Program-made: the position numbers and the translations under genes
Notes under the pieces: model-generated
Database searches by the model: none
The model's input: the letters and a program-made list of their open reading frames with translations, nothing else
Told to the model about the DNA's origin: nothing
Shown here: positions 1 to 15,256 of the stretch, piece after piece
How the letters are laid out: each line of letters opens with the position of its first letter
Numbering within the stretch: the stretch's first letter is position 1
NCBI GenBank assembly: GCA_021561035.1
Contig: CP067346.1
Coordinates: forward strand, 1,767,001 to 1,831,000
Reading direction: 5' to 3'
Length of the DNA: 64,000 nt
DNA from: Clostridioides sp. ES-S-0054-01
GTDB taxonomy: Bacteria; Bacillota; Clostridia; Peptostreptococcales; Peptostreptococcaceae

Positions 1-537
1 GAGACTGGTACATATACAAAATTCCTTAAAAGTATAGAGAATTTAGGTGAAAAAATAAATAAACAGAGTGAAGCAAAAAAACTTATAGATGAATTAGAGG
101 GAGTAGAACAATCTGTAGCAGAAAAGGCAAAGAAACAAGATAAAAAGCCAAAAGTGGCAATCTTATTTGGTGGTGGAAATAATTTTATGCTAGCTACAAA
201 AAGTTCATATCTTGGAGATTTAGTAAAAACAGTAGGTGCTGAAAATATAGCTGATAACCTAACAGATAATGTGGAATCAGATTATATACAATTTAGTTTA
301 GAACAAATTTTGAAAGAAAATCCAGATTATATACTTAGATTTGCACATGGAAATATTGAAGAGACTAAAAAAGCATTTGATGATTCTTTTGATAAAAACC
401 CTGTATGGGCTACATTAGATGCAGTAAAAAATGGGAAAGTTATAGATTTAGATTCAAGTATATTTAATGTATCTGCAAATATACATGTTAAAGATTCAAT
501 AAATAAATTGGGAGATATCTTGTATGGAGATAAATAA
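1..537 (+). CDS. ABC transporter substrate-binding protein, iron-chelate/corrinoid class (5' truncated)
   Basis: Reading frame 1 is open from the first base to the TAA at 535-537, so this is the C-terminal 178 residues of a longer protein cut by the window edge. The visible part starts with a lysine/glutamate-rich helix (the long backbone helix that joins the two lobes in class III binding proteins), then the second lobe with 'KVAILFGGGNN' and an 'ILKENPDYILRF' segment typical of FepB/BtuF-like proteins. It should capture a ferric siderophore, heme or corrinoid outside the membrane and feed the permease 16 bases downstream. The ligand cannot be read from the sequence. A GTG at 154 could be mistaken for a start, but the family and the open upstream frame argue against it. 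Confidence 0.88.
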   Translation, partial: ETGTYTKFLKSIENLGEKINKQSEAKKLIDELEGVEQSVAEKAKKQDKKPKVAILFGGGNNFMLATKSSYLGDLVKTVGAENIADNLTDNVESDYIQFSLEQILKENPDYILRFAHGNIEETKKAFDDSFDKNPVWATLDAVKNGKVIDLDSSIFNVSANIHVKDSINKLGDILYGDK

Positions 538-553
538 ACTTTAGGTGAATAAT

Positions 554-1534
554 ATGGATAACAAAAAAATTTTATTAATAGTTACAGGTATGATAACTGT
601 AATTGCTTTGCTAATTCTTTTTTCTACTATAGGTAGTGTAAACTTAAGCCTTAGAGAAATATTTGATGCATTGATAAATGAAAATAATCCAATGGTTACT
701 ACAATTGTATATAAGATGAGACTACCTAGAAATATATTATCAGCATTGGTTGGAGCAAATTTAGCTGTTTCTGGTCTATTATTACAAGCTGTTATGAAAA
801 ACCCATTAGCAGACCCTGGAATAACAGGGATATCAACTGGTGCAAGTGTAGCTGCTATTATAATATTGCTTCTATTTCCACAATACACAAGTATGCTACC
901 AATAGTTGCTTTTATAGGAGGTCTTATATCTTGTGTAGTAGTATATCTAATGGCGTATAAAAATGGTCTTAGACCAGAAAGAATTATACTAGCTGGAGTA
1001 GCTGTAAACACTATATTAGGTGGTGTGATATCGTATTTATCAACCATGTATAGTGAAAGAATTCAAAGTGCAATGTTGTGGTTAAATGGGAGTCTGGCAA
1101 CAAAGACATGGTCTGATGTAAATATGCTGATATGGTATTCCATAATAGGTCTGATAGGAGCAATTTTTCTTATTAGAAGTGCAAATGTGCTACAATTGGG
1201 AGATGATGCAGCTACAAATCTAGGTTTTAATGTAAACAAAAGCAGGTTCATAATATCATTAGTGGCAATATTTTTAGCTGGAGTTTCTACTTCTATAGTA
1301 GGTGTTATTAGTTTTGTAGGTCTAATCGTACCACATATAACACGTATGTTACTTGGTAGTGACCATAAATATACAATCCCATTTAGTATAATACTAGGAA
1401 GCATAGTTTTATTAATTGCAGATACGTTAGCTAGGACAATCGGTGGGTCAATAGAGATTCCAGTGGGCGTTATCATGTCCATAATAGGAGGTCCATTCTT
1501 CTTATATTTATTAAGAAAGAGAGGAAGTTATTAA
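554..1534 (+). CDS. FecCD-family ABC permease
   Basis: This is a very hydrophobic protein of 326 residues with about nine or ten membrane segments. It carries family signatures such as 'MRLPRNILSALVGANLAVSGLLLQ' split over the N-terminal third, 'NPLADPGITGISTGA' and 'GLIVPHITRMLLGSDHK' near the C-terminus, which contacts the ATPase. It forms the membrane channel of the iron/corrinoid importer. I take ATG 554 rather than the in-frame GTG at 545, because AGGTG at 543-547 then lies six bases upstream as ribosome site. The stop overlaps the ATG of the ATPase by one base (TAATG), a sign of translational coupling. Confidence 0.93.
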   Translation: MDNKKILLIVTGMITVIALLILFSTIGSVNLSLREIFDALINENNPMVTTIVYKMRLPRNILSALVGANLAVSGLLLQAVMKNPLADPGITGISTGASVAAIIILLLFPQYTSMLPIVAFIGGLISCVVVYLMAYKNGLRPERIILAGVAVNTILGGVISYLSTMYSERIQSAMLWLNGSLATKTWSDVNMLIWYSIIGLIGAIFLIRSANVLQLGDDAATNLGFNVNKSRFIISLVAIFLAGVSTSIVGVISFVGLIVPHITRMLLGSDHKYTIPFSIILGSIVLLIADTLARTIGGSIEIPVGVIMSIIGGPFFLYLLRKRGSY

Positions 1535-2328
1535 TGTTCAATGTAAAAAATATTAAGATAGGTTATGAAGATAAGATTATCATAGACAACTTAAGTGTAA
1601 GTATTAAAAAAAGTGAAGTAGTATCTATATTAGGACCAAATGGTTCAGGAAAGTCTACACTTCTTAAATCATTGTCTAGAATTCTAAAAATCAGACAAGG
1701 TGACATATACATTGGTAAAAAAAATATGAAAGTTATGAGTAATAAAGAGATTTCAAGGCAAGTGGCATTATTAGCTCAACACAATGTATCTTTAAGAGAT
1801 ATAAAGGTAAAAGACTTAATATATTATGGAAGAATACCACATAAAGGTTTTTTTGAAGGCAAAAATAAGAATGATGATGAGATAGTGACTTGGGCAATGA
1901 GAAATACAGGTCTTGAAACGTATAAAGATAAGTTGGTGAGTAATCTATCTGGAGGTGAAAGACAAAGAGTATGGTTGGCAATGGCTCTTTGCCAAAAACC
2001 AGATATACTTTTACTAGATGAACCAACAACATATCTAGATATATCACATCAATTGGAACTTATGGAGCTTATAAGAGATATAAATAAAAAATTTAAAATG
2101 ACTATAATTATGGTTTTACATGATATAAATCAAGCTAGTAAATACAGTGATAGACTTATTATTATGAATAATGGTTCTATAGTAGCAGATGGGCATCCAA
2201 ATAGGGTAATAAGTGAAAAAATAATAAAAGAAGTTTACAAAGTGAAATGTGATATAGATATAGACCCAATTAGTAAAAAGCCTAGGATTCACCCAATAAT
2301 GTTATGTAGAAGAACTAGTAGTATATGA
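1534..2328 (+). CDS. ABC transporter ATP-binding protein, FepC/BtuD type
   Basis: The 264-residue ATPase energises the importer encoded just upstream. The Walker A motif GPNGSGKST is near residue 35, the ABC signature LSGGERQR near residue 140, and Walker B with the D-loop 'LLLDEPTTYLD' near residue 160; the H-loop histidine is in 'MVLHDINQ'. These are all intact. Translation starts at the ATG that overlaps the permease stop. The gene ends 99 bases before the nitrogenase-like pair, with no clear terminator between, so the transporter and the reductase may be co-expressed. Confidence 0.94.
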   Translation: MFNVKNIKIGYEDKIIIDNLSVSIKKSEVVSILGPNGSGKSTLLKSLSRILKIRQGDIYIGKKNMKVMSNKEISRQVALLAQHNVSLRDIKVKDLIYYGRIPHKGFFEGKNKNDDEIVTWAMRNTGLETYKDKLVSNLSGGERQRVWLAMALCQKPDILLLDEPTTYLDISHQLELMELIRDINKKFKMTIIMVLHDINQASKYSDRLIIMNNGSIVADGHPNRVISEKIIKEVYKVKCDIDIDPISKKPRIHPIMLCRRTSSI

Positions 2329-2427
2329 AAATGTAATATTTATAAATAATTAGAAAGCAAAGGTTATTATCTATGCAAATTTATAAGTTTGAGTTTACAT
2401 GGATAATAAGAGTAGAAAGGAAAACAT

Positions 2428-3705
2428 ATGTATACTTTAGATGTATTAAATAGATTAAAAGATATAGATTGTGATAAAGATATAAAGTCTTTATCATATG
2501 CTGTATTTCCAGGAACACATTGTCCATTGTTTGGAGTTGTATTGACTGCATCATATATAAAAAATATGGCTCTTGTAATAGTAGGAACGAATGAATGTAC
2601 TTACTATAGTAAAAACTTTGCATATCATAGGCAATTTGGCAAGGATAGTGTTTATTCAGTAGTACTAAAAGATAAGGACATAGTTTTTGGTGCAGAAAAA
2701 AAAGTGGTAGAAGCTGTAAAGTATATTTCAGAAATTGATGAATTTGATGCAATAATGATAGTAACTACATGTGTACCAGAATTAATAGGCGAAGATTATA
2801 ATGCTTTGTCTAATGAATTGGAAGATATGATTGGAATACCTGTTTTGACAGTTAACACAGAGCATTATACTTGTAATTCTCATATACTTGGGATGACTAG
2901 AGCTTTAAAGAGTCTATCATCAGTTATGGAGAGTTATAAAAATAAAGATGGAGTCAATATATTAGGTCATAGACAAGAAAATGTAGAGGATACAGAACTT
3001 GTAAAATTGCTCGTAAAAAAAGATATAAAAATAAACTGTGTAATCCCATCTAAGTGTACTATAAAAGACATTAAAAATGCATCTAGTGCTAAATTAAACA
3101 TAGTGACAGATATGATAGCTTTGGATTTAGCAGAAGATATGAAAAATAAGTTTGGGATAGAGTATGTATATTTTGATAAAAATATGAAAGAATCAATTAT
3201 AATAGAAAATTATAATAAACTTTGTAAAATTTTAGACATAGATATACAAGATGAATTATCAAAGCAGAGACAGAGATACAATTCATTATTGAGTGAATGT
3301 AGATATCTGTTGGAGGGTAAAAAATTGATTTATGGGAATACACCAATGATGGCATTTGAAACAGTCGATTTTTTAACTGAATTAGGACTGGTTCCAGAAT
3401 TTATCCAAGTGAGAGAACTTTATGAACAAGATAGTTTATTTAAAGATAATATAATAAAAAAAGGATACAATCCATATGTAAGTAGAATTGCAAATATAGC
3501 TCCACTTAGAAGTTTGTATGAAAATATAAATGCAGATATTTATATAGGACATGAAAATCCAATGTTATTAAGAGAGAAAGGGCTTATGCAAATAACATTA
3601 GATGAACATGCACAAAAAATAGGTTTTGAGCTTCCAATAGGAATAATGAAAACCTTAATTAAATTATTTGATGTAGAGAAATCTGCAAGAAAGGAAGTAA
3701 TCTAA
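2428..3705 (+). CDS. Nitrogenase component 1-like protein, subunit A
   Basis: The 425-residue protein belongs to the oxidoreductase/nitrogenase component 1 family (NifD, NifK, BchN, BchB and relatives). Three cysteines sit where the P-cluster ligands of NifD lie: Cys32 in 'GTHCPLFG', Cys57 in 'GTNECTYY' and Cys115 in 'TTCVPELIGED', the last matching the CPxxLIGDD motif. There is no nitrogen-fixation context: no nifH, nifE/N or nifB nearby. The partner subunit starts one base after the stop. A reductive job on an iron-chelate, tetrapyrrole or corrinoid brought in by the upstream transporter is an inference from position only. The ATG follows a GAAAGGA ribosome site. Confidence 0.85.
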   Translation: MYTLDVLNRLKDIDCDKDIKSLSYAVFPGTHCPLFGVVLTASYIKNMALVIVGTNECTYYSKNFAYHRQFGKDSVYSVVLKDKDIVFGAEKKVVEAVKYISEIDEFDAIMIVTTCVPELIGEDYNALSNELEDMIGIPVLTVNTEHYTCNSHILGMTRALKSLSSVMESYKNKDGVNILGHRQENVEDTELVKLLVKKDIKINCVIPSKCTIKDIKNASSAKLNIVTDMIALDLAEDMKNKFGIEYVYFDKNMKESIIIENYNKLCKILDIDIQDELSKQRQRYNSLLSECRYLLEGKKLIYGNTPMMAFETVDFLTELGLVPEFIQVRELYEQDSLFKDNIIKKGYNPYVSRIANIAPLRSLYENINADIYIGHENPMLLREKGLMQITLDEHAQKIGFELPIGIMKTLIKLFDVEKSARKEVI

Positions 3706-3706
3706 G

Positions 3707-4918
3707 ATGGAAATATATAAATATTTTCCAAATCCTTCTGACAGAATGGGAATAATATTTACAGTATCATCAATAAATGAAGCCTGTGTTATAGAGTTTG
3801 GACCATCAGGCACAACTCATTATGCTATAGAAGCAATTGGAAGCTTAAATGGAGAAGATAAGGCTAAAATTTATTCAACACATATGAGTGAAAGTGATGT
3901 TACTTTTGGAAATTATGATAGACTGGAGAAAGCTATAATTGAAATAGATAATAATATTAAACCAAAGTATATTTTTGTAATGGCTTCATCTGTATCTTCA
4001 ATTATAGGGACAGATATAATTGGGATATGTAATATTTTAAGGGAATCTGTAAACTGTAGACTAATTCCAATTACAACAGGTGGGTTGAGAGATGACTATA
4101 ACCAAGGAGTGGAAGAGTTTCTTTATATATTGGCAAAGGAAGTAGTCAAAGAAAGTAGTGAAAAATTGGATAGTTTTAATATAGTTGGATGTACTATAGA
4201 CCAATTTAATTTTTTAGCAGATTGCGAAGAAATTAAAAGAATGATGAAAGTTTTTTTTAAAAAAGAAGTAAATGTAACCTTTACATCATATACATCAATA
4301 GATGAGATAGAAACTGCGTCTAAATCAAGTTTAAATATAGTACTTAGAAAAGAAGGTATAAAAGCAGCAACTTTTATGAAAGATAAATATAATATACCTT
4401 ATGTATACAAGAAACCTTATGGAATAAAAAATACTGAAGAATTTATAAGTGAAATACAAAAAGTAACTACATGGGATTTAGATAAAAATACCTATGAGGC
4501 TGAAATATCTAATATAAAAAGGTATATGTTTAATATAAAAAGAAAGTTTTATTTTTATAAAGGAAGTAAAAAATGTGCTGTGTTTGGAGATTATGATACC
4601 ACATTAGGGTTTAGAGACTTATTAGAGGAGTTAGGTCTTGAAATTGATAGGGTTAATGTATTACATAATATAGATTGTAATGACAAATCTGTGTATATTG
4701 GGAACGATGAACTGGATAGAAGCGAATATTTAAAAGAGAATGAATTATTAGCACTATTTGGAGATGGTGCTAGCATCGATATGAAACATAATTCAAAGTT
4801 AGATATGCAGATAAGTAATCCAAACCTAAAAAGTGTAAATATATATCCATATACTCCTTTTGTAGGATTAAGAGGAATTCTTTATGTAATTGAAAAAATA
4901 CTAAATATACAGTATTAA
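3707..4918 (+). CDS. Nitrogenase component 1-like protein, subunit B
   Basis: The 403-residue protein has the same fold family as its upstream neighbour, with matching blocks such as 'MGIIFTVSSINEACVIEFGP' and 'VMASSVSSIIGTDIIGI'. The cysteines of the canonical motifs are missing: the 'GPSGTTHY' block has Thr36 where Cys is expected, and 'MASSVSSIIGTD' has Ser where NifK-type proteins have Cys. Cys27 lies nearby. The pair would therefore be asymmetric, with three cluster ligands on subunit A and few or none on B, somewhat like the dark-operative protochlorophyllide reductase subunits. Only one base separates the genes, so they are co-translated. Confidence 0.82.
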   Translation: MEIYKYFPNPSDRMGIIFTVSSINEACVIEFGPSGTTHYAIEAIGSLNGEDKAKIYSTHMSESDVTFGNYDRLEKAIIEIDNNIKPKYIFVMASSVSSIIGTDIIGICNILRESVNCRLIPITTGGLRDDYNQGVEEFLYILAKEVVKESSEKLDSFNIVGCTIDQFNFLADCEEIKRMMKVFFKKEVNVTFTSYTSIDEIETASKSSLNIVLRKEGIKAATFMKDKYNIPYVYKKPYGIKNTEEFISEIQKVTTWDLDKNTYEAEISNIKRYMFNIKRKFYFYKGSKKCAVFGDYDTTLGFRDLLEELGLEIDRVNVLHNIDCNDKSVYIGNDELDRSEYLKENELLALFGDGASIDMKHNSKLDMQISNPNLKSVNIYPYTPFVGLRGILYVIEKILNIQY

Positions 4919-7942: not shown

Positions 7943-8581
7943 ATGGACATACTTGATGATATAGCAGAATGTATATTAAATATGGGTGTAGACAATATAG
8001 AAAATTTAGTAAAAATTGCTATAGATAAAAATATTGATGTGGAAGATATTTATGAATATGGTTTAAATAAAGGTATGATAGGAGCTTTAGATAAATTTGA
8101 GAATAAAGAATACTATCTTTCAGAAGTTATAGTATGTACAGACGCATTAAATAAAGGGATTAATCTTTTGAAAGGAACTGGAAAAGTAAAGAAAAAATCA
8201 AAGGGAGTAATTCTAATGTCTGTAGTAGAAGGAGATACTCATGAGATAGGAAAAAATATTGTAAAGGTAATGGTGGAAGCCACTGGATATAAGGTTATTG
8301 ACTTAGGTGTAAATAGAAAAAGTGAAGATATAATAGAAGAAGCTATAAAAAACAATGTGGATATAATAGGCTTATCTTCAATGATGACAACAACGATGGA
8401 AAATATGAAATCAGTTATAGACGAGCTTAATAGGATTAATATAGATAAAAGACCAAAAGTAATAATTGGTGGTGGTCCTGTAAGTATGGAGTTTGCAGAA
8501 GAAATAGGAGCAGATGGATATAGCTCAAATGCTCCAAAAGCAGTAAAATTAATAAACAAACTTATAGGAGGTGAAGTTTAA
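7943..8581 (+). CDS. Corrinoid (B12-binding) methyl-carrier protein, MtbC/MttC type
   Basis: The 212-residue protein has a helical cap domain (residues 1-85) and a Rossmann B12-binding domain with the signature 'EGDTHEIGKNIV', in which the histidine of D-x-H-x-x-G is the lower cobalt ligand, and 'GGGPVSMEFAEEIGADGYS' near the C-terminus. Such proteins carry a methyl group on cobalt between two methyltransferases. It is the first of three tightly packed genes; the next starts at the stop codon. No substrate-specific MtxB-type methyltransferase is next to it, so the methyl donor cannot be read here. Confidence 0.92.
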   Translation: MDILDDIAECILNMGVDNIENLVKIAIDKNIDVEDIYEYGLNKGMIGALDKFENKEYYLSEVIVCTDALNKGINLLKGTGKVKKKSKGVILMSVVEGDTHEIGKNIVKVMVEATGYKVIDLGVNRKSEDIIEEAIKNNVDIIGLSSMMTTTMENMKSVIDELNRINIDKRPKVIIGGGPVSMEFAEEIGADGYSSNAPKAVKLINKLIGGEV

Positions 8582-8582
8582 C

Positions 8583-9605
8583 GTGTTTTCAGATATGACT
8601 TTACTTCAATATATAAATAGTGAAGATAGAGGTTTTTTTCTTCCTGATATGGGTACAAATGGACTGTTTTTAATAAATAAAAAGGCATATGAAGTGTATG
8701 ATAGTGTAGATTTACAATTAGAATTAGCAAAAACTATGGACAAGTATTTTGAATCAGACTTTATATACTCATTCTGTGATGGTATTACATTTTGCGAAAC
8801 TCTGGGTTTAGAGACATTAAGGCCAGATTATGATTTTCCAAGTGTATTAACACATACTATAACTGACAGGGAAAAACTAAGAAAATTAGACGTTCCAGAC
8901 CCTTATACAAGTGGACGTATGCCACTCAATATAGAAAGCTTATCACTTATATCAAAAAATATTAAAAAACCACTATATGAGTCGATACAAGGTCCATTTA
9001 CACTTGCAGGTCAATTAGCTGGAGCTACACAACTTTTAAGATGCATAATAACTGATAAAAAATTTGTAGAAGAACTATTGGAATTTACAACTGAATTGGT
9101 AAGAAGATATGCCGTAGCTGCAAATAAAGCAGGAGCAAAATATATTTCAATAGCAGAACCAACATCAGTAACCTTAAGTAAAGATAGATTTGATGAATAT
9201 ATAGTAAAAAATTTAAATAAAATTTACGATGAACTTGATTGTTGGAAAGGTATGCATATATGTGGAGACACCAGAGAATTATTAGATAATATGTTAAGTT
9301 GTAATATAGATGCAGTAAGTTTAGACCAAATTTTAAACTATGAAGAAATTGCTCCAATGATTCCTAGAGATATAGTGTTGATTGGTAACTTGGACCCAAT
9401 AAAACTTCTTGGACGTTCTAACCCAGATAAAATCAGAAGAGAGACACTAAAGCTGTTAAAGAAGATGAGAGGATACGATAATTTCTTATGTGATTTTGGA
9501 TGTAACTGCTTAAATACCACTCCAGTAGAAAATTTACAAGCAGCTATAAAGGCAGGAAGAATTAGTTATAAAGAATTAGATAGGATTGATATTGATGAAT
9601 TATAA
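8583..9605 (+). CDS. UroD-fold corrinoid methyltransferase, MtaA/MtbA-like
   Basis: The 340-residue protein belongs to the uroporphyrinogen decarboxylase superfamily. It has the zinc-site pattern of cobamide methyltransferases: His-x-Cys in 'MHICGDT' near residue 223 and a later cysteine cluster 'CDFGCNCLNTTP'. It would move the methyl group between the upstream corrinoid protein and a thiol or tetrahydrofolate; coenzyme M is not expected in this organism. I prefer GTG 8583 because the AGGAGGTGA at 8566-8574 then has normal spacing; GTG 8571 would lie inside the ribosome site. It overlaps the next gene by 11 bases. Confidence 0.88.
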   Translation: MFSDMTLLQYINSEDRGFFLPDMGTNGLFLINKKAYEVYDSVDLQLELAKTMDKYFESDFIYSFCDGITFCETLGLETLRPDYDFPSVLTHTITDREKLRKLDVPDPYTSGRMPLNIESLSLISKNIKKPLYESIQGPFTLAGQLAGATQLLRCIITDKKFVEELLEFTTELVRRYAVAANKAGAKYISIAEPTSVTLSKDRFDEYIVKNLNKIYDELDCWKGMHICGDTRELLDNMLSCNIDAVSLDQILNYEEIAPMIPRDIVLIGNLDPIKLLGRSNPDKIRRETLKLLKKMRGYDNFLCDFGCNCLNTTPVENLQAAIKAGRISYKELDRIDIDEL

Positions 9606-10215
9606 TAGTAATGAAAATGAATATCTTTTAGAGAATATAAATTTAGAAGATATTTTTATAGATAAGAACATTGTGCTAAAGTTTTTGGGGTATGGAAATA
9701 GAAAAGCACCCGATACAATTATTGAAATCGTGGAAAGAGAAATAAAAAATATAAATAATATTTTGGATATTAAGGTATATATAAGTGAAGTTGATATTGA
9801 TAAAATGCCTAAAGAATGTAAAAAAGCATTTGCTATACTATATACAATAGGAGATAAAATTGACATCAAGATGAATGATTATATGAAAACTTGCAATATG
9901 ATGGCAGGATTAGCACTTGACAAAATAGGTATAGTATATTTAGACTGTATTAATGAGAAAATAAAAATGTGCTTAAAAGAAAAATATGCTAGCTTCAACA
10001 TATCACATGAGATATATCCGGGAGATAAAGATTTTGAAGTAGAGAGACAAAAGGATATTTATAACTATATAAAAAATAAATATAATAATATAGAAATAGA
10101 AATCAATGATTATCATCAACTATCTCCCATAAAAAGTGTCGCAATGCTTATTTTGATGGGTGATGAAGAAAATTTAGAATCAAGATGCAGTAAATGTCCT
10201 AGAAAATGTTTTTAG
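9595..10215 (+). CDS. Corrinoid reactivation-like protein (methionine synthase activation domain family)
   Basis: The 206-residue protein resembles the B12-dependent methionine synthase activation domain: a mixed fold with 'DYHQLSPIKSVAMLI' near residue 180, the place where MetH has its S-adenosylmethionine-binding loop. It ends with CSKCPRKC, a C-x2-C-x3-C motif that could hold an iron-sulfur cluster or metal. The likely role is to return oxidised cob(II)alamin on the upstream corrinoid protein to service. ATG 9595 follows AGGA by about nine bases and overlaps the preceding gene, so the three genes are translationally linked. Confidence 0.75.
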   Translation: MNYNSNENEYLLENINLEDIFIDKNIVLKFLGYGNRKAPDTIIEIVEREIKNINNILDIKVYISEVDIDKMPKECKKAFAILYTIGDKIDIKMNDYMKTCNMMAGLALDKIGIVYLDCINEKIKMCLKEKYASFNISHEIYPGDKDFEVERQKDIYNYIKNKYNNIEIEINDYHQLSPIKSVAMLILMGDEENLESRCSKCPRKCF

Positions 10216-10549: not shown

Positions 10550-10562
10550 GGGTTTTATTCTT

Positions 10563-11108
10563 TTATAAGATGACTGCAAAAATTACTTTGCTTTCACTAT
10601 TTGAATCATTTTGCCATTTATGTTTTGTTCCTAAAGGAATCTTTACACTATCCCCTTTGAATAAAGTAAACTCATCATCATCCATAAAGAGTTTAACTTC
10701 TCCTTCCAGAACATATGCAATTTCATCTCCATTATGAGTAATTCTATCAACACAAGAAGAAGTATTTGGAGATAAATCCATAATTGCAAATTCTAAATTA
10801 CCACTGTAGTCTGGAATTAAAATCTCATATACAACTTCTTTGCTTCCAGGTAAAATAACTCTTTTTCTACTATCATGTCTTACTATCAAGCTTTTTTTAT
10901 CTACCTCAGATACAAAAAATGTAAATAAAGGAACGTTTAGGGAAGAGGCTATAGATTTTAATGAGTTTACAGATGGATTAGCAAGACCTCGTTCTATTTG
11001 GCTTAATAATGATGGTGTGACATCAGCTAGTTTTGCTAAATCTCGAATACTTAAGTTTTGTTTTTTTCGAACTTCAGCTATTTTTTGTCCTAAATTTAAA
11101 TCATTCAT
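10563..11108 (-). CDS. XRE-family regulator with C-terminal cupin domain
   Basis: The 181-residue protein has an N-terminal helix-turn-helix (residues 8-62, 'LSIRDLAKLADVTPSLLSQIERG') and a C-terminal cupin_2 barrel with 'THNGDEIAYVLEGEV' and 'IPLGTKHKWQN'. This PuuR/SinR-cupin architecture usually senses a small amine or amino-acid-related ligand. GAGAGGA lies seven bases upstream of the ATG. It is transcribed away from the broken GntP permease and probably controls that promoter region; this is inference. Confidence 0.9.
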   Translation of the reverse strand: MNDLNLGQKIAEVRKKQNLSIRDLAKLADVTPSLLSQIERGLANPSVNSLKSIASSLNVPLFTFFVSEVDKKSLIVRHDSRKRVILPGSKEVVYEILIPDYSGNLEFAIMDLSPNTSSCVDRITHNGDEIAYVLEGEVKLFMDDDEFTLFKGDSVKIPLGTKHKWQNDSNSESKVIFAVIL

Positions 11109-11250
11109 ATGAATATCCTCTCTTTTTAATTTAAAAATATTAACTTAAAATAATCAAGTAAAAAGATTATATAGTATGAAATTATTATAACATATATAAT
11201 GAAGTTTTGAAAAAACTATGTTCAATATAATTGAATAAATTAAAATATAA

Positions 11251-11279
11251 TTGACAAGTGAATACAGGATACTTAAAAT
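11251..11279 (+). promoter_or_regulatory. Vegetative promoter upstream of the GntP remnant
   Basis: TTGACA at 11251-11256 and TAAAAT at 11274-11279 are separated by 17 bases, 54 bases before the ATG of the permease pseudogene. Confidence 0.65.
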
Positions 11280-11333
11280 ATATTTAAATAAAATTAAGTA
11301 AAAAATAATTAACTTATGATAGGAGGTGATATT

Positions 11334-11856
11334 ATGCAAATAACAACTTTTGGAGCGATATTTGGATTATTAATAGCAATTATTTTAATTATAAAAAAAT
11401 TTCAAGCTGTATATAGTTTAATGTTAGGAGCATTTATTGGAGGATTAGTTGGAGGAGCAAACATAACACAAACTGTAGATTTTATGACAACTGGAGCTAT
11501 GAATATATCACCATCAATTCTTATAGCTTTAGCATCATGTATTAGCTGGAAGTTTAATAAAGACAGGGGCAGTAGATAAGATATCAGAACAGATTGTAAG
11601 AATATTTGGTGAAAAGAGAGTTTTGTTTTCGATTGCTGTTTCAATGATGGTATTATTAGCACCAATTTCAGGGGCTTCAATAGTAAATGCAGGCTCTAGT
11701 GTGTTCGAGCAATTACCACCTGGCTCATTATTTCATACTAGTGCAAGTAGTATAAATATGGATATAGGAGAAAGATTTAGATTAATTCCATATGAAGCAC
11801 TGATAGGAATAGTAATAACTACAATTTCAACATCTATTCAATTAATTTTACAATAA
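11334..11856 (+). pseudogene. GntP-family permease, frameshifted and internally deleted
   Basis: A strong AGGAGGTGAT site precedes ATG 11334, and the first 70 residues read as a GntP/gluconate-type permease N-terminus. Near 11545 the frame shifts by one base: the next frame continues the family sequence ('LIKTGAVDKISEQIVRIFGEKR'-like stretch). From about 11690 the sequence jumps to a normal GntP C-terminus ('RLIPYEALIGIV'). Some 250 residues are missing. The result cannot be a working 12-helix transporter. It probably once imported the substrate of the reductase downstream. Confidence 0.8.
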
Positions 11857-11939
11857 ATATAAATATTTAATGAAAAAAGTAGGATTTTGTTATTAAATAT
11901 TGAATTTATTATAGTAAAAAAGAAGATTGGAGTTTTAAA

Positions 11940-13934
11940 GTGAATAAAAAAAAGATAGTTATTATAGGAATTATTTACTCTTTTTTAGTGGTGTTTTCAC
12001 TTACAAATATGTATGTAAATATGGAGTATAATCTAAATGTATTTGAATATATTGAGAAATCACTTCCATTTACAGAAGAAGAAAAAAAGTGGCTAGAAAA
12101 ACACAAGAATTTGATTTATAGCTCTGACCAAAGTTCCCCTCCTTTGAGATATAAAGGTAAAGAAGATGGACAGTATAAGGGAATTATTGTTGATTTAATA
12201 AATTCTCTGTCAATTCAAATTGGTAGAGATTTTTATTTTAAACCAAATACTTGGTGGAAAGAATCTTTCATAAATTCAATAGATGATAGTATAAAGTTTT
12301 TTGACTTGATACCATCAAAAGAAAGGGCAAGTAAATTTATATTTACTGACCCAATATATACTTTGAGTGCAAATATATTAAAAGATAAAAAATCTCAAGA
12401 TATAAATAGTTACATGGATTTAAAGGGAAAAACAGTAGCAATTCCAGAAGGTGACTATTCTATAAAATTTTTGAAGCAAAAAGTTCAAGATGTAAATATT
12501 CTATTGACTCCAGATATAAAGACTGGAGTCAAGCATTTGATATCGGGAAGTGCAGATGCAGTTGTTGGTGATGAACCAGTATTAAGATATTATATAAATA
12601 ATTATGGACTTTCAAATAAATACAATGTTTTAAGTAATCCTATATATACTAAAAAGGCAGTTCTTGCTGTACCTAAACAATATGAAGCGTTGGTCAGTAT
12701 TTTGAATAAAGGGATTTTTAAACTTCAGAAAAATGGAGTGTATAAAGACTTAAAGAAAAAATGGTACTCTACATATAATGGAGTTGATGATATATTATAT
12801 GAGAGAGGAGTTACGCCTAGTATTTATCTTTTTATAGGTATAATTTTAATATCAATTTATTTTTTTTATAGCTATACATATTTGTTAAAGATAGAAATAA
12901 AAAGAAAAACAGAAGAGGTAATAGAAAATAAAAAAACTTTGGAGGCAACCTTTAATAGCATCACAGATATAATAATGCTTGTAGATGAAAATAATAATAT
13001 AGTAGAGTCGAACAAAGTACTATATGATTTTATAGGCGAAATAAGTTATAAAATAGAAGATTTGATTAACATGATAAAAGGTATTATTGAAAATACCTTT
13101 TCTGAAAATACGCATAAAACTAGAGAAATAGAAATACACAATAAGATTTTAAAGATAAACACTTTTCCTGTAGAATATAAAAAAAATAATACTGGGTATA
13201 TAGTAGTTCTTATTAAAGACATAACTAATGATAAAATAGTAGAGGCAAAATTACTTAGAGAAAACAAAATGATATCTATAGGGCAACTAGCTTCTGGAGT
13301 AGCACATGAGATAAGAAATCCTTTGGGCATAATAAGAAACAATTGCTATCTTTTAAAAGATAACGTTACAATAGAAGAAGTAAATGATTGTGTAAAATCA
13401 ATAGAAAGCAATGTAGACAGAGCAAGTAACATAATAACCAACTTGCTAAATTTTGCGAGAATATCAGATGATAATTTAGAACATATAAATATAAGAAATT
13501 TTATTGAAAATATAGTGAAACTTCAGTATAAAATCTTACAGCTAAAGAATGTTGAAATAAAAATCGACTGTGATAATAATTTAGTATGTTATATAAATGG
13601 AGAATCATTAAAACATGTATTTATAAATTTAATTTCTAATGCAGTAGATGCAATACATAAAGATGGAAAAATTATTATATACTGTTATGTAAAAAATCAT
13701 TGTTTGTTTATAGATTTTAAAGATAACGGTGAAGGAATAAAAGAAGATGCTCTGAAGGATATATTTAATCCTTTTTATACTACAAAGCCAATAGGCGAGG
13801 GAACTGGTTTAGGTTTATATATTACTTATAACGAGATTAAAAAGAATAATGGAGATATAAGTGTTGAAAGTAAATTGGGGATTGGAACTTGTTTTCATGT
13901 AAAAATTCCACTAAATAAAGAGGTGACTATATAA
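11940..13934 (+). CDS. Sensor histidine kinase with periplasmic solute-binding (SBP_bac_3) domain
   Basis: The 664-residue protein has an N-terminal membrane anchor (5-24), an extracytoplasmic amino-acid-binding-protein-like domain (about 50-275), a second membrane helix (about 288-312), a PAS region (335-430), a HisKA domain with phospho-acceptor His456 in 'VAHEIRNP', and an HATPase domain with 'DNGEGI' and 'GEGTGLGL'. It should bind a small extracellular nitrogen compound and phosphorylate the response regulator whose ATG overlaps its stop. GTG 11940 follows GGAG by eight bases. The position before a GrdE/GrdB-like pair suggests it senses that reductase's substrate. Confidence 0.92.
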   Translation: MNKKKIVIIGIIYSFLVVFSLTNMYVNMEYNLNVFEYIEKSLPFTEEEKKWLEKHKNLIYSSDQSSPPLRYKGKEDGQYKGIIVDLINSLSIQIGRDFYFKPNTWWKESFINSIDDSIKFFDLIPSKERASKFIFTDPIYTLSANILKDKKSQDINSYMDLKGKTVAIPEGDYSIKFLKQKVQDVNILLTPDIKTGVKHLISGSADAVVGDEPVLRYYINNYGLSNKYNVLSNPIYTKKAVLAVPKQYEALVSILNKGIFKLQKNGVYKDLKKKWYSTYNGVDDILYERGVTPSIYLFIGIILISIYFFYSYTYLLKIEIKRKTEEVIENKKTLEATFNSITDIIMLVDENNNIVESNKVLYDFIGEISYKIEDLINMIKGIIENTFSENTHKTREIEIHNKILKINTFPVEYKKNNTGYIVVLIKDITNDKIVEAKLLRENKMISIGQLASGVAHEIRNPLGIIRNNCYLLKDNVTIEEVNDCVKSIESNVDRASNIITNLLNFARISDDNLEHINIRNFIENIVKLQYKILQLKNVEIKIDCDNNLVCYINGESLKHVFINLISNAVDAIHKDGKIIIYCYVKNHCLFIDFKDNGEGIKEDALKDIFNPFYTTKPIGEGTGLGLYITYNEIKKNNGDISVESKLGIGTCFHVKIPLNKEVTI

Positions 13935-15256
13935 TGAAAATACTAGTAGTTGATGATGAGCTAGAGTATGGAGCGGTAATGAAAAAAATTCTACAAAAGA
14001 ATGGCTATCTTGTAGATATAGCACTAAGTGGTGAAGAAGCTATAAATATAATTAGAAAAGATAAGAATTATGATTTGGTTTTATCTGATGTTATGATGAA
14101 AAATATGGATGGAGTACAGCTATTAGATAGAATTAAATCTATTAATAGAAATATAGAAGTTATATTAGTTACAGGATATGGAAGTATTGAAAATGCAGTT
14201 GATGCTATGAAAAGAGGAGCTCTATCTTATTTTATAAAAAGTAACCCCATTGAAAATTTATTAGAAGAAATTGAAAAAGTAAAGGCGGAGAAAGCATCAG
14301 TTTCTATACAAAAAAATAATTTAGAATTTACTTTAGAATCTAAAAATAGAGATTTTAATGATATTATAAAAATAGCAGAAAAAGCTGCTTGTAAAGATGT
14401 TAATATATTAATTTTGGGGGAATCTGGTGTAGGGAAAGATATACTAGCTAGATATATACATAGTATAAGCCCAAGAAAGAATGAGATATTTGTGCCTGTA
14501 AATTGCTGCTCTTTTTCAGAAAATCTATTGGAATCTGAGCTGTTTGGACATGAAAAAGGCTCTTTTACAGGAGCAGTGGATAGTAGAAAAGGCAGATTTG
14601 AACTTTCGAATAAAGGAACTTTATTTTTGGATGAAATAGGAGATATACCTTTAAATGTTCAAGTAAAACTTTTGAGGACACTTGAGGACAAATCCATAGA
14701 GAAGATAGGAAGTAATAAATCCATTAAAGTTGACTTTAGGTTAATTTGTGCGATGAATAAAGAACCAAAAGTAGAAATATCAAGTGGAAATATAAGAGAA
14801 GATTTTTTTTATAGGATAAGTACAATAACAATAACTATACCACCACTAAGAAAGAGAAGGGAAGACTTAACTACTCTTGTAGAATTTTTCTTAAATAAGT
14901 ATCAAATTGAACATGATAAAAAGATATACTCAATTGATAAGGAAGTAAAGGATTTTTTATTAAATTACAATTATCCAGGAAATATAAGAGAATTAAAAAA
15001 TATAATAAATAGACTTGTAGTTTTAAGTGAAGAAGGTAGTTTATCAAAAGATAATTTAAATTTAATATCAAATAATGTGTATATAGACAATAAAATAAGT
15101 ATTAGACCTTTAAGAGAAATAAGAAAAGAGTTTGAATGTGAGTATATTGAAAAGGTTTTATCTTTATGTGGAAATAATATTTCAAACACAGCTAAAAAAT
15201 TGGAGATTAGTAGAAGACAATTAACTAACAAAATATCAGAATATAATATTAAGTGA
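13934..15256 (+). CDS. NtrC-family sigma-54-dependent response regulator
   Basis: The 440-residue activator has a receiver domain with phospho-acceptor Asp52, an AAA+ domain with Walker A GESGVGKD, a GSFTGA loop (GAFTGA variant, the sigma-54 contact), Walker B 'GTLFLDEIGD', and a C-terminal Fis-type helix-turn-helix 'NTAKKLEISRRQLTNKI'. It starts at the ATG overlapping the kinase stop. A sigma-54 promoter at 15452-15470 and two dyads at 15254-15294 lie directly downstream, so its target is almost surely the GrdE/GrdB-like pair. The first dyad overlaps its own stop codon. Confidence 0.94.
   Translation: MKILVVDDELEYGAVMKKILQKNGYLVDIALSGEEAINIIRKDKNYDLVLSDVMMKNMDGVQLLDRIKSINRNIEVILVTGYGSIENAVDAMKRGALSYFIKSNPIENLLEEIEKVKAEKASVSIQKNNLEFTLESKNRDFNDIIKIAEKAACKDVNILILGESGVGKDILARYIHSISPRKNEIFVPVNCCSFSENLLESELFGHEKGSFTGAVDSRKGRFELSNKGTLFLDEIGDIPLNVQVKLLRTLEDKSIEKIGSNKSIKVDFRLICAMNKEPKVEISSGNIREDFFYRISTITITIPPLRKRREDLTTLVEFFLNKYQIEHDKKIYSIDKEVKDFLLNYNYPGNIRELKNIINRLVVLSEEGSLSKDNLNLISNNVYIDNKISIRPLREIRKEFECEYIEKVLSLCGNNISNTAKKLEISRRQLTNKISEYNIK

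Follow-up and report, generated by a model that had tools for sequence, protein, structure and literature searches.

Organization of the cassette

Examination of a 64,000-nucleotide stretch of the single-contig, 3.93 Mb genome of Clostridioides sp. ES-S-0054-01 (G000:C1:1767001-1831000; hereinafter, the window), together with the sequence beyond its left edge, reveals a conserved operon in which genes for nitrogenase-like proteins are combined with those of an importer. The operon is real, its nitrogenase-like components form a distinct clade, and its role in heme-iron acquisition is well suggested but unproven. Base 1 of the window splits the cassette, the full set of which consists of genes for an AraC-type regulator, a NifH-like protein (H), a binding lipoprotein, a FecCD-family permease, an ATP-binding cassette (ABC) transporter ATPase, and two nitrogenase-like subunits, D and K (Table 1). 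A preliminary description of the window, in which D and K were denoted subunits A and B, had correctly recognized the nitrogenase-like pair and the ATPase next to it; the genes at 1534-4918 are as described there, but this interval covers only about half of the cassette. The same description held that nifH was missing, which turned out to be wrong: the window edge cuts the cassette, and the H gene ends 395 bp ahead of window base 1. With this potential NifH-like donor found in the cassette itself, a search for one elsewhere in the genome became needless.

Table 1. Genes of the cassette. Locus L005 is the locus of the window extended past the left edge (window position = L005 position - 10000).
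Product	Window	L005	Contig	Strand	Basis
AraC-type regulator		8707-7967		minus	open reading frame beyond the window edge
H, NifH-like		8856-9605	G000:C1:1765859-1766608	plus	PF00142, 336.3 bits, E 2.1e-100
Substrate-binding lipoprotein, IsdE-like heme-type, 296 aa		9647-10537	G000:C1:1766647-1767537	plus	Peripla_BP_2
FecCD-family permease	554-1534	10554-11534		plus	PF01032, 323.1 bits
ABC transporter ATPase, iron-chelate/heme type	1534-2328	11534-12328		plus	PF00005
D, nitrogenase-like alpha-type subunit	2428-3705	12428-13705		plus	PF00148 (Oxidored_nitro), 187 bits
K, nitrogenase-like beta-type subunit	3707-4918	13707-14918		plus	PF00148 (Oxidored_nitro), 221.6 bits

The lipoprotein gene starts 354 bp ahead of the window, so that window positions 1-537 (plus strand) encode its C-terminal 178 residues. 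The start codon of the permease gene is the ATG at 554 (an in-frame GTG is also present at 545), and its stop codon overlaps the start of the ATPase gene. The intergenic gaps from H through K are 41, 16, -1, 99 and 1 bp, and the single terminator-like site that was detected lies on the minus strand, within the permease gene; given these short gaps and the position of that site, transcription of H through K as a single unit appears plausible.

The nitrogenase-like components

In a maximum-likelihood tree of 107 D- and K-type proteins (support given as SH-aLRT/bootstrap), the 35 D proteins of the family form one clade, with a modest support (81.6/81), and the 35 K proteins form another one (97.5/99), with all reference sequences outside; the references were Bradyrhizobium NifDKEN, Nostoc Vnf, Tateyamaria BchNB and BchYZ, Chlorohelix and other clostridial sequences, with CfbD and MarDK not included. 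Thus, D and K stand apart from Nif, Vnf, BchNB and BchYZ, in agreement with the preliminary proposal of an enzyme distinct from characterized groups; the branching order among Nif, Bch and the cassette family is not relied upon. The family H proteins (35 including the one from a Treponema saccharophilum plasmid, L063) are not a clade of their own because the Treponema H nests among them. The D and K of this plasmid fall outside both family clades, so L063 was dropped from the family and left out of the D and K residue counts, and was kept among the 35 proteins of the H tree. It carries (L063 6484-14140) a separate nitrogenase-like D/K pair, with neighbouring genes annotated as ABC binding proteins, as an iron ABC permease and as an ATPase, and accordingly represents a second, separate link of nitrogenase-like genes with iron-type importers. 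The Treponema locus clusters with a further group of nitrogenase-like clostridial loci (L056, L057, L106), which have H and component-1 genes of their own.

The residue patterns of the two subunits are lopsided. The three cysteines of D (Cys32, Cys57 and Cys115) noted in the preliminary description sit at cysteine columns of NifD and BchN, and are kept in 35/35 aligned relatives. In K, the reported Thr36 and Ser95 indeed occupy two NifK cysteine columns, with Cys27 nearby; however, Cys27 is present in only 18 of the 35 K proteins, which rules it out as the fourth, conserved cluster ligand. None of the 35 has a cysteine at either of these two NifK columns, and the third column is a gap in the three K rows displayed. 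Residue 36 is Thr in 28 and His in seven proteins, so that Asp36 of BchB is not matched, whereas Glu30 is invariant in all 35 K and is found in none of the displayed Nif, Vnf and Bch proteins. Seven K proteins carry Cys33 in place of Cys27, and this distant subgroup may accordingly possess a cysteine ligand.

In NifDK, six P-cluster cysteines are shared by the two subunits and the FeMo-cofactor is held by a Cys and a His. The cassette does not match the six cysteines, there being three in D, and the cofactor ligands are absent, the Cys column of D being occupied by Asp228 and its His column by Ile389; neither ligand is present in the other three family D rows displayed. A whole-genome PF00148 search matches only D and K, hence no NifEN, and the nifB model TIGR01290, which matched in seven of 14 control genomes (above its cut-off in two), has no match in the whole genome. 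The absence of nifE, nifN and nifB had been correctly noted before, and the view that the pair is a nitrogenase-type reductase outside nitrogen fixation is supported. The likeness to NifHDK is confined to the fold, the NifH relative and the NifD P-cluster cysteine columns.

The closest resemblance is to dark-operative protochlorophyllide reductase (DPOR; BchL-BchN-BchB), likewise a three-component system, in which three cysteines from the BchN-type subunit, with Asp36 of BchB as the fourth ligand, hold the cluster; the cassette similarly combines three alpha-type cysteines with a non-cysteine beta-type residue at the cluster site. In an AlphaFold model (pLDDT 88.1), the fold of D is nearest to DPOR, with nitrogenases close behind, and the K model superposes best on BchB, where the best matches superposed share about 16-17% identity. 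The differences are the Thr or His of K in place of Asp36, the separate clades and the tie of the cassette to an importer. All DPOR models score under their cut-offs (BchN 49.6/420 on D, BchB 101.8/490 on K, BchL 219.8/345 on H). The best-scoring model for H is CfbC, of the Ni-sirohydrochlorin a,c-diamide reductase CfbCD, whereas the CfbD model gives D only 35.1 bits against a cut-off of 268.4; CfbD is homomeric (PMC12552129, cited here and below from the part available), in contrast to the two paralogous subunits of the cassette.

The importer link, spread and probable iron control

We applied one set of profiles, with fixed score thresholds, to 39 family loci and to 28 control loci carrying other nitrogenase-type genes. 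A FecCD permease is encoded in 35/39 family loci and 0/28 control loci; a binding protein and an importer-type ATPase were each found in 34, and a flavodoxin in nine family loci, against none in the control, although the importer profiles were built from family members and so favour family-like importers. L018 and L043, each a contig of 185,253 bases, are apparently one record, so that the distinct family loci number 38. The importer is thus part of a conserved gene set rather than merely adjoining, and the suspected link to the transporter holds across the family. The family loci that lack the permease are a broken copy (L021), a contig that starts within D (L104), and L050 and L051, where no permease was found within the 11.8 and 16 kb examined. 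The order H, binding protein, permease, ATPase, D, K is typical of close relatives and differs in others (e.g. L018, L044, L047, L048, L049, L058). The flavodoxin was assigned by Pfam to PF12641 in all seven loci checked (L015, L045, L046, L019, L044, L095, L104). The gene immediately ahead of that of the binding protein in L049 (10838-11761) encodes a protein with a sulfite/nitrite-reductase domain and ferredoxin motifs.

With the IsdE model TIGR03659, the score of the full-length binding protein is 288.1 bits, just under the cut-off of 298.65; the next best model reaches 81.0 bits, and BtuF 36.8 bits. Its closest solved structures are IsdE (2q8p, 195 bits) and Listeria Lmo2184 (5joq, 183 bits), followed by one at 57 bits. 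Met79 and His234 align with the heme-ligand columns of IsdE, whose axial residues are Met78 and His229. The His of the motif [IV][LF]R..H is found in 26 of 36 aligned binding proteins, and among the 24 His-type proteins with a readable Met column, this position is Met in 19, Phe in three, and Ala and Arg in one each. The His is missing in nine distant rows (L045-L049, L058, two of L100, and L101), whereas in L102 a His occurs within another motif. On the Sporomusa termitida plasmid (L058 2852-15301), a version of the cassette is accompanied by genes for a TonB-dependent siderophore receptor and for an esterase (PF00756). Because of these motifs and this gene context, the binding proteins of the close clade look heme-type, and some members of the distant clade look siderophore-type. 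The ATPase scores 295 bits with the FecE model and 235 bits with the heme-ATPase model, both under cut-off. A search for NEAT domains was uninformative, the model having matched in no control genome.

For iron control, the best match to TGATAATNATTATCA, the Fur-box consensus, was scored out of 14 within up to 250 bp upstream of H in 34 loci. A box of at least 12/14 occurs in 12/34 loci, every one of which has the heme-type His: 14/14 in L014, 13/14 in L009, L011, L013 and L094, and 12/14 in L008, L018, L044, L096, L097, L098 and L103; as a background, 5 of 63,986 window positions score at least 12. Six further heme-type loci score 11/14 (L005, L006, L007, L012, L042, L095), and five score 10 or less (L015, L016, L017, L019, L020). 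None of the 11 distant loci attains 10/14 upstream of H. The box in the genome of the window (L005) is among those at 11/14 and is not significant by itself, as 27 of 200 shuffles were as good. Taken together, the upstream sequences suggest that the operon is probably under iron control. A promoter scan gave 47 sites against 50.7 expected and was not used.

D is 93-97% identical to three named Clostridioides difficile records and is found in 6/8 genomes of the genus. The two congeners without D (G774 and G775) are syntenic at the cassette site and retain, respectively, a piece of the AraC gene (L142 about 12526-12542) and pieces of K (L143 5364-5600); on account of the synteny and these remnants, both are read as losses of the cassette. 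More widely, a search with the single D protein matched in 73/391 class-level genomes at E 0.001, of which 11 (own included) exceeded 80 bits, and a profile of 26 D matched in 85/398 phylum-level genomes at E 1e-20, of which 12 (own included) scored at least 195 bits, with the next at 162. In Paraclostridium benzoelyticum, K (L008 4838-6054) is divided over two frames, and in Clostridium sp. CCUG 7971, what is left in the stretch read is the end of D and some fragments of K (L021 8001-9151).

Possible functions of the cassette

The mechanism and ALTERNATIVES that we favour, with roughly even confidence for and against, is ATP-driven reduction of imported heme by which the iron is set free. The cassette would be an iron-starvation operon that exploits heme iron without oxygen. 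The lipoprotein would bind heme outside the membrane, and the permease and the ATPase would import it; H, reduced by a flavodoxin or ferredoxin, would spend ATP to supply a D2K2 complex with low-potential electrons. A single [4Fe-4S] cluster is probably present in each DK half, coordinated in a DPOR-like manner by the three D cysteines and a non-cysteine residue of K (Glu30, or Thr/His36), with neither a P-cluster nor a FeMo-type cofactor. This complex would reduce the bound heme, at the porphyrin ring and/or the iron, so that the metal is held less tightly and Fe2+ is freed; a porphyrin reduced to a non-planar state has a poor hold on iron. Searches of the whole genome gave no match to PF01126 heme oxygenase or HemS, and the best HutW score was 192.6 bits against a cut-off of 400 (IsdG was not searched), a result compatible with a different type of heme-opening enzyme.

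Some of the distant relatives are encoded in siderophore-type operons, and the main rival is therefore an ATP-driven ferric-chelate reductase, which would reduce the Fe(III) in imported chelates of very high stability, the Clostridioides ligand being whichever chelate, heme or other, fits the IsdE-like protein. Catecholate siderophores have potentials too low for NAD(P)H. The Sporomusa plasmid groups its siderophore receptor and esterase with an AraC regulator, a binding protein, two iron permeases, an ATPase, H, D and K, and the binding protein of L048 is enterobactin-receptor-like (NF008200, 85.8 bits, cut-off 205). Moreover, a single chemistry would cover the whole family, siderophore-linked relatives included, a point in favour of this rival. 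The IsdE-type binding proteins of the close clade, with their heme-ligand columns, and the K model, which is nearest to a tetrapyrrole reductase, speak against this alternative, which we consider unlikely but deserving of serious attention. Less probable still is a tetrapyrrole-modifying enzyme that would reduce imported heme or another tetrapyrrole to a cofactor or a harmless product, iron release not being the purpose. DPOR and CfbCD do reduce tetrapyrrole double bonds, using [4Fe-4S] clusters only (PMC12552129), and the K model is DPOR-like and H CfbC-like; the Fur-type boxes of the relatives, however, indicate iron supply. A tetrapyrrole-pathway gene could have been missed because most of the neighbouring genes were left unannotated.

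Two further readings appear highly improbable. In one, the enzyme would cleave C-S bonds in sulfur salvage, like methylthio-alkane reductase (Mar), and the importer would be coincidental. MarHDK belongs to the same superfamily and is an HDK system without nitrogen fixation, and downstream of the cassette, at 7943-10215, lie genes for an MtgC/MtbC-like corrinoid protein, an MtaA/UroD-type methyltransferase and a 209-aa protein without a Pfam or NCBIfam match; these resemble part of an mlp-type methyltransferase cluster, and corrinoid methyltransferase clusters have been linked to Mar-like genes (PMC10418091, in the part available). Mar, however, contains a P-cluster and an [Fe8S9C] cluster (PMC12552129), whereas the NifK cysteines are missing from K and the cofactor Cys from D, and no nifB is present in the genome; the importer link across the family argues against coincidence as well. 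The other reading, a corrinoid importer with a corrinoid reductase, was one of the options of the preliminary description, which had proposed an imported metal chelate, tetrapyrrole or corrinoid as the substrate. The permease also matches the BtuC model (247.6 bits, cut-off 461), but the binding protein, with its far lower BtuF than IsdE score, speaks against a corrinoid importer; the link to a metal-chelate or tetrapyrrole importer stands.

Heme is a large source of iron in animal hosts, and heme oxygenases require oxygen. The Isd importer (S. aureus IsdE, Listeria Lmo2184) is similar in that the binding protein of the cassette scores near the IsdE cut-off, with both heme-ligand columns preserved, but the enzyme of the S. 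aureus operon is the heme oxygenase IsdG (PMC12670364), where that of the cassette is nitrogenase-like. The available part of this 2025 review describes only the radical-SAM ChuW/HutW and the HemS/ChuS-type routes as anaerobic, and the word nitrogenase is absent from it. ChuW/HutW has the same proposed job, and ChuW uses flavodoxin (PMC12670364), but the enzymes are unrelated. In the accessible text of a study on the C. difficile iron response, hemin gave the iron-limited wild type no significant growth gain and slightly helped a fur mutant; earlier work cited there found that heme supported growth under iron limitation, and nitrogenase is not mentioned in the main text (PMC6311696). A transporter cluster for iron complexes has been listed as unique to clade C-III, likewise with nitrogenase unmentioned in the part available (PMC8241443). 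The accessible portions of PMC10913485, PMC7438776, PMC7242693 and PMC9431491 hold nothing on the system, and we found no description of it in the literature covered, preprints outside PMC and most subscription papers being beyond its scope.

The known roles of nitrogenase-like enzymes (in part from PMC12552129) comprise N2 fixation, the synthesis of chlorophyll and of F430, the assembly of cofactors and the cleavage of C-S bonds; to these, iron acquisition, if true, would add a new one. Slightly more tentatively than the mechanism itself, we propose that the cassette represents a third anaerobic heme-iron route beside ChuW/HutW and HemS/ChuS, namely a nitrogenase-like, ATP-driven reductase with its own importer in one iron-controlled operon, within a wider family of iron-chelate reductases that would include siderophore-linked versions. 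The findings suggest that the cassette is an unrecognized, oxygen-free bacterial way to extract iron from heme.
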